NCBI RefSeq assembly: GCF_035083965.1
Contig: NC_089724.1
Location: 21,542,474 to 21,606,473, forward strand
DNA: 64,000 nt
From: Branchiostoma lanceolatum
Taxonomy: Eukaryota; Chordata; Leptocardii; Amphioxiformes; Branchiostomatidae
Reading direction: 5' to 3'
Below the pieces are notes generated by a model that made no database searches, had not been told where the DNA came from, and saw only the letters and a program-made list of their open reading frames with translations. Each line of letters begins with the position of its first letter. The first letter of the stretch is position 1. Both the position numbers and the translations under genes were made by a program. Below, in pieces: positions 28,688 to 60,271 of the stretch.

Positions 28688-31600
28688 ATGGCGGCCGGGG
28701 AAGACGGGGCGCTCAGTCGGGAGGCCGTGCTGAATTACCTGGACTCGCACCCGGAATTTGCCGGGGAGTATGTAGCGCGGGTCCGGTCTGCGCAGGGCCG
28801 GGAGGGCGTCCCAGGCTCCGGCCTGGCCAACCACTGGCAGGCGCAACAGCTGCTCTCCCGCCGCAGAGGCTCCCGCCACTTCGACCAACACCCCGAGACC
28901 GCCCTCGGCGTGTCCACCTTCCCAAGGCGGCCCCTCTCGCCCGCACGGCGCTACAACTTGAGGAAACGGTCTCCTAGGAAACAGCCGTCGCGAGAGAAAC
29001 TCTCCAAACTGAACGAGCTGGATTTGATGCTGGAACTGATCAGGGACATTGCCAATGAACTGGACATGACCAACCTGTGCCACAAGATCCTGACCCATGT
29101 CGGCATCCTGACCAACGCGGACAGGTGCAGCCTGTTCCTGGTGAAGGGCAGCAGGTGAGAGGGCGACTCATTTTCCCACAATCTTTCACACCTGTCTTAG
29201 AACTTGATATATAACGTTACAACTTACAGTCGGTTGCCTGAAAGGGCTGGAGGTAGAAATGTATTTATGGACAAACACCGTCTGAAAACATGAGGGGTGT
29301 AAATACACAGCGGCAACGCACCGCTGAACCGTTCTACTGTGTCCCCGCCTGTGGTGTTATAAATTGATAGTAAAACCATGGTCTGTGGACACAATAATTT
29401 ATTCCTGCTACCTGACTGGAGGTGTTTTAGCTTTTAACAAGTCGTTTTCGGGGTTTATGCTTTTAACTGCATGCGTTGCTTTTTTGTTGTTGCTATGTAC
29501 AATGTCAAGCTCAATTTTCGCATGGGTGCGGAGTGCAGAGGCACTGTTATGTCCATCTGTATTTGTCACCTCAATGCTCCATAAGACATCATCTCTACAG
29601 CTGAATCTAAGCTAAGACATGTTTGCGTAAACGAATGACTAGCTGAGAATTGACACTTAGCACACGATCAACATCCGTTACCAGGATGTCTTGCGCGTCT
29701 GTGACATTGAAATTAGATGATCGATGCGTCTGTAGGATTCCTAATTACACCCTCTCTTTCCTGCCGTCCGTATCAGCTGATTATAGTACGGGTCTCTTAG
29801 TGATTGCGGAAAATTGCATCATGACAGCTATTACTGGTGAATGACAATGGCAGAAAAATTTATATGACATTTCTTCCTCCTCTTCCCAAATTACATCGCG
29901 ATCGACACATCAAACTGAAGACGTCTGCGAGATTTCCTCAGTCCTGCCCAAATGATGACGAATCCTATAGGCTATAGCCATTTGCTGTATAATGCTGGAA
30001 GTTACGTAAAACGAGACCTGATTGGTATGCTGCGCCTTGAATCACGCTGTAGATATAGGATAAATTGCGGAAACGGTTCCCCACCGTTTAAGTGTGCATT
30101 GTCGACCTACGTAACCCGTGACCCGGGCGAACTCACATTTGTGCTGTGTGTTTACAAAAAGAACTTGCTCGTCTTTCATGACCGTTTTCATGTAACGCGT
30201 TACCTCGACTATGTTTTCTTTCTTACAGAGACGCGGATTCTTTCAAAAGTGCTCAAGCGACGTTCCTATAATGATAAATCTCTCGCAGTGGTAATGCTGC
30301 AGTTATGAATTGATCCTGTGAAAAACGAACAGCCATTTTGTACTCCAGTTCCTGCCAAGCTAATATTCAAACCTGCTGCATTACTGCGCCATTTAATAGA
30401 CTCATTTTCTGGTAGAGAACAGAACTTCACAACAGACATTCAGTTTTACCATGACGTAAAAAAGATCAAAGAAGACATAGAAGAGGTCAAGACGTGGGTG
30501 GCAAAATATGGGATACGTTGTATATTCTAGTACATGGACTTGTGTCAATGTTAGCTTTCTCAGCCATGGTCTCTGTATCACAGGCAACTTTAGATGTGCA
30601 CGCACAGACAGTATCTTCTCTCAACAGGTGAACCTAGCTGCAAGATTAAGGGGCTAGCTGTCAGACGTTACAGTGGCAGTCCCCTTAGGGCATATGTTAT
30701 GTATGAAGTGCTAGACAAGTTGTCACTTCAAATTTGATACCGTTGTTTGTGTTCCCTTTCCGAAGGTGATTTTTCACGTGCATCATGAAAGTGTTTGACA
30801 ACGATAAATCACTGCGCCATTGTCATGTTTCCGGATGTTGTTATCAGCTGCTGCGTTGTTGTTGTTGTTGTTGTTCTCTGAAAATCGTTTTGACGTTTCC
30901 GTTATCATTCAGTCAACATGTTACATGGCCACATTGTTCATGCTGAGAGGCATTCGTGTATGGTATAATATCAAATATTGCTGAGACGAATCTTGTAGAC
31001 AGCTCTAGAATTTATTCATAACGTCTGGCTGTGGGCGTGCTGCTAGCTGTCAGTGTTTGTAGATGGGAGGGGTTGAAAATCGTATCGAAAGGTAACTTGT
31101 TCGTCCAATCCATGTTTTAGTCCGTGGGTACGAATGAAACATGACCTGAGGCCAAGATTACGAGCTGCGTACGTAGAACCGAAGAAACCTCACCGCTTGA
31201 CAGGTGGACTTACTGACACGCTCCAACTGACGTGTTTTCGCTATTCAACAAAAGATCATTCAACCGCGCATAATCTGTAACAAACTTGCGTTGGTCCTTA
31301 CGTGACAATACTTCCAAGGCGCCATTTATCTAGAGTAGTAGCACCAGATAACGTTTCTTATAGGGAATCACATAACAGATGTGTGCGTGCTAGCGTCTAT
31401 GGGGGTTTTAGAACCAATGCACGTAACGTTGCGTCAATCGATCCGAAAGAACGTCATACATGATGCCAGGGCTGTGCCAGGGTTTGTTGACACACTTTCC
31501 GGGCCGTTTAGTTGGGCTGAAATTGGCACAAGTAACCAGCGGTCAGATCGCTTGCTGACTGATTCGGCGTATCCTGTCGTCAATGTTCACTTAAACACAG

Positions 31601-59600: not shown

Positions 59601-60271
59601 TTCTGGGTCTCTTCCTTGTCGTACATGGCGGCGACTGTTCTCTTTGACGGCACCTCTCGTGACGTGCTGGGCTGAGATTTCCTGTACAGCTCATCATTTT
59701 TGATAGACCTGATGACAGAACAAATAACAAACATCTCTTAAAATCATCATCTTTTTCTATAAGTTAGTTTTGTAGAAGACAAAAATGTCTCGAAGCTACA
59801 TTTTACGTCCTGGCTCAAGCTGGAAACCAGATTTCTTTAAATTCTTTACCAGTACCAGGCTGAATGAACTCTTCTATTAAAGTTAGATCTGAGAAAATGC
59901 AGCTAACATTACCTTTTCTTCTCTGCCTCCGCATCGTGGCCCTGTTCACTGTCATACTCATCGAACTCGGAACCATAACCTCCAGCCCGGTGGATCTGCA
60001 CAACAACACAAATATGGAAATGTTACATAATTTCAGGCAAGGATCTCCTGTGTTCATAGAATAACACATCAAAAAACACAAAGTGCCACAGTTGCAAGGA
60101 CAGTGTGCAAGTTTGCCGTACCATCCATCATTGACAGTAACATTTCTACCTTCCCTATTCTTCTATCAATATCACTGCAAAATCTAGATCTTCATTGTCA
60201 GATGCATTTTGCAGAAAATCGAGGAAAACGTCACCAAAACTCACCTTTCCCAAATCAAGACGATCCGCCAT
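56669..60271 (-). CDS. FRA10AC1: FRA10AC1 homolog
   Basis: Twelve minus-strand exons, 60271-60245, 59995-59913, 59708-59570, 59242-59166, 58992-58909, 58506-58422, 58270-58225, 57952-57839, 57448-57406, 57296-57175, 57032-56942 and 56711-56669, join in phase to 317 residues (human 315). Diagnostic stretches are YHFKAMDA, YMIYYGGKKEDFKR, TDLDIIRENHRFLWNEEDEDMD, KEYCIADLSRYKENK, LRWRIEKEVIEGKGQFSCG, GLKSWEVNFGY, LCPDCSYKLNYHH and the terminal EEEFDDYFEDMFL. Paired cysteines around 200-250 could bind a metal. A Lys/Arg-rich segment (about 240-285) could be a nuclear localisation signal. FRA10AC1 is a nuclear protein linked to spliceosomal complexes. All exons are under 140 nt. It is convergent with the PDE and divergent from POMGNT1. 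Confidence 0.95.

Follow-up and report, generated by a model that had tools for sequence, protein, structure and literature searches.

A candidate pre-duplication counterpart of vertebrate PDE6 lies tail to tail with FRA10AC1 in an amphioxus window

In vertebrate phototransduction the effector is PDE6, and the stretch of DNA analyzed here (64 kb of contig NC_089724.1 from the amphioxus Branchiostoma lanceolatum, 43% GC, hereafter the window) raises the question of whether the catalytic gene is older than the vertebrate genome duplications. The window contains a gene for a phosphodiesterase (PDE) with GAF domains, here called the PDE gene and its product the PDE protein, which an original prediction from the letters alone proposed to be the pre-duplication counterpart of PDE6. 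The results indicate that the PDE protein is probably a membrane-anchored cyclic GMP (cGMP) phosphodiesterase of the PDE6 lineage that antedates the gamma subunit, encoded at a locus orthologous to that of PDE6C and linked to FRA10AC1 since before the duplications.

The convergent PDE and FRA10AC1 genes

The PDE gene was modeled with a purpose-written spliced aligner guided by the human PDE5A and PDE11A4 sequences, and the splice sites were refined by hand. The PDE5A sequence was verified at 723 of 723 residues. The model begins with the ATG at 28688, the stop codon ends at 54922, and the 22 exons join in frame with no internal stop, a result that reproduces the predicted length of 999 residues. 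FRA10AC1 is encoded on the minus strand from the ATG at 60271 to the stop at 56669-56671, and the two stop codons are separated by 1746 bases in which no further gene was recognized by inspecting the open reading frame (ORF) lists by eye. The gene models, together with Pfam, confirm the predicted arrangement in which the plus-strand PDE gene directly precedes a minus-strand FRA10AC1, tail to tail. The features of the pair are as follows.

28688..54922, plus strand: probable PDE6-lineage GAF-GAF-PDE gene, 22 coding exons, 999 residues (spliced alignment; Pfam)
28688..29154, plus strand: exon 1, with the start codon, N-terminal helix motif and first portion of GAF-A (gene model; N-terminal block aligned)
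32545..42800, plus strand: exons 2-5, with the remaining GAF-A, an NKxnFx3DE motif at residue 251 and the start of GAF-B (gene model)
44914..47709, plus strand: exons 6-11, with the remaining GAF-B, an NKxnFx3DE motif at residue 435 and the linker (gene model)
48029..53962, plus strand: exons 12-21, with the catalytic domain and its metal-site and specificity residues (gene model; Pfam)
54384..54922, plus strand: exon 22, with a tail of ~178 residues, the CAAX box CAIL and the stop codon (gene model; CAAX count)
54923..56668, unstranded: intergenic region between the two 3' ends, poly(A)-signal hexamers present on either strand
56669..60271, minus strand: FRA10AC1, 12 coding exons, 317 residues, convergent with the PDE gene (gene model; PF09725 1e-53)

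Pfam assigned PDEase_I (6.4e-83) and GAF (9.4e-37, two stretches) to the PDE protein, which thus has a class I catalytic domain preceded by two GAF domains with two NKxnFx3DE motifs, the architecture of PDE6. The FRA10AC1 product matched PF09725 with 180.9 bits against a cut-off of 27, and 173 of 305 aligned residues were identical to human FRA10AC1. A poly(A)-signal hexamer, ATTAAA, is present at 54952 downstream of the PDE stop codon.

Repeats were also observed in the PDE introns. Arrays of AACAT and GT at 32920-33020, 39210-39306 and 51525-51565 are possible polymorphic markers, and two pairs of repeats in opposite orientation, each 84% alike, have one copy inside a PDE intron (19547-19627 with 34380-34460, and 9782-9855 with 45433-45506). 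The GC content at third codon positions in the tail exon (54384-54922) is 0.44 versus 0.77 in the other PDE exons, as if the tail were under other evolutionary rules.

FRA10AC1 is a single-copy gene, so at most one PDE locus can have it as a neighbor. Human PDE6C and FRA10AC1 lie on the plus and minus strands respectively, the convergent arrangement found here; the neighbors of PDE5A differ from those of the PDE gene. The order in pig is MYOF, CEP55, FFAR4, RBP4, PDE6C, FRA10AC1, LGI1, SLC35G1, PLCE1 (PMC8871947). A gene list from goat places FRA10AC1 next to PDE6C (PMC9902602), and rainbow trout has both genes within one interval, in a list whose order is not clearly positional (PMC9046923). 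The adjacency that was proposed for vertebrates is borne out by the pig and goat gene lists, and the convergent orientation there is presumed. A PDE-FRA10AC1 pair in a non-vertebrate was not found described in the openly licensed literature. A rough estimate of the chance of acquiring this neighbor is ~0.1%, calculated as 2 flanks x 10 flanks of the five human PDE5/6/11 genes / 20,000; the value uses approximate gene numbers and is lower if orientation is counted, and might reach 1% should the two genes descend from one ancestral chromosome in any case.

The PDE protein ends in C-A-I-L, a CAAX box, which at the level of sequence is the C-terminal prenylation signal of PDE6. A strict CAAX box ends only one of the 2114 ORFs of at least 20 residues in the window, that of the PDE gene, and a loose form ends 16. 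The bovine PDE6B chain terminates in CRIL. The sequences of PDE5A and PDE11A4 end without a CAAX box; the PDE protein departs from this PDE5-type end, although a short read-through end is possible. C-terminal prenylation is listed as one of six features distinguishing PDE6 (PMC13095499). PDE6 is further characterized by regulation through the gamma subunit and transducin, the AIPL1 chaperone, a diffusion-limited rate and a heterodimeric form.

Relationship to PDE5, PDE6 and PDE11

Residues A721, Q729, Q771, F774 and W807 of the PDE protein are those of PDE5 and PDE6, in agreement, at the residue level, with the cGMP-selective active site of PDE6. The corresponding A767, Q775, Q817, F820 and W853 of PDE5 fix the purine-selecting glutamine. 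The eight metal-site residues checked were all present. At PDE5 positions 775 and 820, PDE11A4 carries Ser and Trp and the PDE protein has Gln (Q729) and Phe (F774), a difference at two of the five specificity positions.

Eight junctions of PDE6B are known from reported splice variants (PMC7956818). Six of these (c.1060, 1107, 1258, 1832, 1920 and 2193) match introns of the PDE gene in both position and phase, and c.1401 matches through the length of the exon (144 nt), though the alignment placed it at c.1467; c.928 has no counterpart. The far boundary of the PDE6 linker exon is c.1467, and the exon lengths suggest that the PDE protein is without the vertebrate linker exon after c.1401. The intron match may also hold for PDE5A and PDE11A, and exon structure was dropped as a discriminator.

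Some features of the vertebrate PDE6 chains that were compared are absent from the PDE protein. The aligned positions of PDE6C F777 and F781, the Phe pair that docks PDE6-gamma, are occupied by Ser and Pro, and the alignment revealed that a 10-residue catalytic insertion of the vertebrate PDE6 chains is missing. These absences fit a report that confines the gamma subunit to vertebrates (PMC4906994).

Nine sequences were compared, comprising the PDE protein, one PDE5, one PDE11, four PDE6 and the outgroups PDE2A and PDE10A. The maximum-likelihood tree of the seven ingroup sequences (715 columns, without outgroups) separated {PDE protein, PDE6} from {PDE5, PDE11} with a Shimodaira-Hasegawa-like approximate likelihood ratio (SH-aLRT) of 95.7 and an ultrafast bootstrap (UFBoot) of 92, leading the PDE5 and PDE11 pairings by 6.6 and 6.8 log-likelihood units (lnL). 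The PDE protein fell outside the PDE6A/B/C split. An identity of about 40% to those chains and 49% to human PDE5A and PDE11A is probably too low for a jawed-vertebrate orthologue of PDE5, PDE6 or PDE11, and a 26-kb gene with many introns suits amphioxus better than a tunicate. The pairing with PDE6 was obtained with UFBoot of 88 under JTT, 85 under WAG+F and 91 under C20 on GAF-A, and was backed separately by GAF-A and GAF-B (UFBoot 84 and 75). In a parametric bootstrap, which presumes the simple LG+G4 model, the lead of 6.6 lnL was reached in 0 of 500 data sets under each alternative (0 of 60 each in a smaller run), and the PDE6 pairing was wrongly best in 56 of 500 and 68 of 500. Branch lengths were about 1.06 for PDE6, 0.65 for PDE5A, 0.55 for PDE11A and 0.33 for the PDE protein; long-branch attraction should therefore pull PDE6 to PDE5, the next longest, rather than to the short branch of the PDE protein. 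With outgroups, the PDE protein as sister of PDE6 was 2.2 lnL worse than the best full-matrix tree (p 0.538 in the approximately unbiased test, p-AU), the outgroup root joining two long branches, the outgroup and PDE6. The arrangement (11,(6,(5,PDE protein))) was rejected on the full matrix (p-AU 0.033), and the PDE protein with PDE11 was rejected on the GAF domains (p-AU 0.007).

Searches of structures returned PDE5A with 691 bits, a PDE5-PDE6 chimera with 587, PDE6B/PDE6C/PDE6A with 542-509 and PDE2A with 394 in PDB. A four-sequence catalytic alignment compared with genome-contig and viral-contig collections gave 29 and 71 pattern matches with no relatives among them.

Several results weigh against assigning the PDE gene to the PDE6 lineage. 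Identity over the 715 columns was highest to PDE11A (48.9%) and PDE5A (48.6%) and lower to the four PDE6 chains (37.7-40.2%), GAF-B was closest to PDE11A (47.0%), and the spliced-alignment score was 1748 with the PDE11A4 guide and 1579 with PDE5A, guides that were cut at different points. The original description of the GAF domains as PDE11/PDE5-like is thus right in raw identity, which is a poor guide because PDE6 evolves fast, and the domains were also tested in the trees above. The PDE11A4 sequence is provisional; used as a query of the PDB copy it returned only PDE5A and the chimera, and no PDE11A chain, at the threshold used. Both ingroup alternatives were kept by the AU test (p 0.12 for the PDE5 pairing, 0.09 for the PDE11 pairing), site patterns were nearly even (9 for PDE6, 8 for PDE5, 7 for PDE11), and the catalytic domain alone favored {PDE protein, PDE11} versus {PDE5, PDE6} by 0.9 lnL under LG, and the PDE6 pairing by 0.3 lnL under C20. 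With outgroups, the best full-matrix root placed PDE6 outside (PDE protein,(PDE5,PDE11)) with p-AU 0.783, and trees that were not rejected on that matrix included (11,(5,PDE protein)) with PDE6 outside (p-AU 0.070), the PDE protein with PDE11 (0.113) and (5,(11,PDE protein)) with PDE6 outside (0.281); on the catalytic domain, the PDE protein with PDE11 ranked first among the nine trees (0.743). The pig and goat lists of PDE6C neighbors contain none of the window's six other recognized genes, which leaves a shared segment of two genes. The tail that carries the CAAX box invites caution as well. Although exon 22 outscored all of 2000 intron windows in coding statistics, these do not single out the frame of the exon, frame +2 slightly outscoring it, and length is weak evidence because a 194-codon open frame at 48545-49126 is out of frame with the exons that it overlaps; the evidence for the tail is therefore its open frame, a splice phase that matches and the CAAX box. 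Read-through of exon 21 (53963-54009) would yield a shorter end, ...VTTLGD, without a CAAX box, possibly a non-prenylated isoform.

The tree evidence for the PDE6 placement may thus be described as favorable and not decisive. The test originally suggested, a tree of PDE5, PDE6 and PDE11, returned no well-supported place for the PDE protein inside PDE5 or PDE11, although AU retains some such places. An unlikely explanation puts the gene equidistant from vertebrate PDE5 and PDE6, as a PDE5/6 gene from before the duplications or as a stem lineage of PDE5/6/11, PDE6C having kept the ancestral place and PDE5A having moved and lost its CAAX box. It accords with the equal identity to PDE5A and PDE11A, the nearly even site patterns, the catalytic residues common to both PDE5 and PDE6, and a position as sister to PDE5+PDE6 that, with outgroups, the AU test retained for both the full matrix (p 0.075) and the catalytic domain (0.272). 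That position was rejected on the GAF domains (0.025), the unrooted form is 6.8 lnL behind, though not rejected at p-AU 0.09, with none of its 500 simulations reaching the observed lead, and in cnidarians PDE5A and PDE6-like genes are reported as distinct (PMC9776813). Somewhat less probable again is an invertebrate PDE11 (or PDE5) beside FRA10AC1 by coincidence or macrosynteny noise. The top raw identity, the higher spliced-alignment score with PDE11A4, the catalytic-domain trees, the full-matrix result for (5,(11,PDE protein)) and a window that holds no other listed PDE6C neighbor would agree with a PDE11, whereas Q729 and F774 are of the PDE5/6 type where PDE11A has Ser and Trp, the PDE11 pairing failed on the GAF domains, a CAAX box is present, and the FRA10AC1 neighbor has a chance of roughly 0.1-1%. 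It is very improbable that the convergence was kept by selection, through common 3' regulation or a regulatory block that extends across FRA10AC1, instead of being simply inherited; the genes are adjacent in pig and goat and share an interval in trout though the recognized flanking neighbors in the window differ, but chance alone can keep two genes together.

The proposal of a pre-duplication PDE6 counterpart draws support from the locus pair, CAAX box and ingroup tree and is weakened by the alternatives that AU retains and narrowed by the missing rod/cone-type features. In the form to which it is narrowed here, locus and lineage, the gene is likely of the PDE6 lineage and not a rod/cone-type PDE6 because the gamma-dock residues and vertebrate linker exon are absent. 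The absence of both with the CAAX box present would place prenyl anchoring before gamma control.

Neighboring genes and other features of the window

At least eight genes are recognizable in the window (families by Pfam, coordinates from ORF lists), short exons of others possibly having been missed. The names ARF6, RSPH1, HEATR4 and POMGNT1 are presumptive. In addition to the convergent pair, the genes are as follows.

About 122-652, minus strand: ARF6-like gene (Pfam family)
From about 1366, plus strand: MORN-repeat gene, RSPH1-like (Pfam family)
Open frame 4442-4756, minus strand: EMC6 (Pfam family)
About 8986-10500, plus strand: WDR54 (Pfam family)
Within 12707-22520, extent by eye, minus strand: HEAT-repeat gene, HEATR4-like (Pfam family)
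Open frame 62733-63998, plus strand: POMGNT1-like gene of the GNT-I family, leaving the window (PF03071 8e-51)

FRA10AC1 and the POMGNT1-like gene are divergent across 60271-62733, where they might share a promoter. RBP4, FFAR4, CEP55, LGI1 and PLCE1 were not recognized in the window when the ORF lists were checked by eye, and scans of the window with Rfam (gathering threshold) and for tRNA gave no matches. In the HEATR4-like region, repeats at 12709-12856 give a minus-strand open frame an acidic stretch rich in Asp and Glu. A perfect inverted repeat at 24626-24836 (arms 2 x 103 nt, spacer 5 nt) is a foldback element or else an artefact of the assembly, and a second lies nearby at 25126-25278, with 69-nt arms that are 81% complementary and a spacer of 15 nt.

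Proposed function and comparison with known systems

Gene structure, domains, catalytic and specificity residues, the CAAX letters and the adjacency are direct observations, whereas the age of the PDE-FRA10AC1 linkage, and the prenylation, cGMP specificity and dimerization of the PDE protein, are inferred, the mode of action from its residues and from what is known of the family. The PDE protein would most likely be a dimer of GAF-GAF-PDE chains with cGMP bound in the GAF domains, most likely hydrolyzing cGMP specifically. A CAAX box in which X is Leu directs addition of a geranylgeranyl group, and such a group on CAIL, following the long tail, would most likely tether the protein to the membrane. 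Without the gamma dock, regulation would fall to cGMP acting on the GAF domains, as in PDE5.

A 2016 study states, in a figure legend, that amphioxus yielded no representative of the PDE6 families, and it dates the origin of the catalytic gene to the ancestor of tunicates and vertebrates (PMC4906994). We lean slightly towards the view that the PDE gene is a true PDE6 orthologue in amphioxus, a non-vertebrate, with the FRA10AC1 pair kept for >500 million years and the lipid anchor preceding the gamma subunit. If the placement holds in amphioxus, the statement on amphioxus needs revision, and a report on cnidarians (PMC9776813) fits. The origin of catalytic PDE6 would then move back, the order of acquisition being the CAAX anchor and later the gamma dock and linker exon, and the photoreceptor effector would have been built on a cGMP phosphodiesterase already bound to the membrane. 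The results suggest that both the pairing and the membrane anchor predate the eyes of vertebrates, and, if so, expression of the PDE gene in amphioxus photoreceptors is directly testable.

Among known systems, vertebrate PDE6C, PDE6A and PDE6B share with the PDE protein the GAF-GAF-PDE order, the N-terminal helix motif and the CAAX end, as well as the cGMP-specificity residues and six of the eight printed PDE6B introns, and PDE6C shares the FRA10AC1 neighbor; the PDE protein differs in having Ser and Pro for the Phe pair and ~178 residues of tail before the CAAX box. PDE5A is alike in identity (48.6%), in the cGMP-specificity residues and as the best PDB match, but its sequence has no CAAX box. 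PDE11A, a dual-substrate enzyme, is alike in identity (48.9%) and in GAF-B, but PDE11A4 differs in carrying Ser and Trp at two of the specificity positions and in lacking a CAAX box. Drosophila Pde6 is a prenylated PDE5/6-like enzyme with a CAAX end. From cnidarians, PDE5A, PDE11A and a group of PDE6-like genes are reported, the last described as a close relative of vertebrate PDE6 without being its orthologue (PMC9776813).

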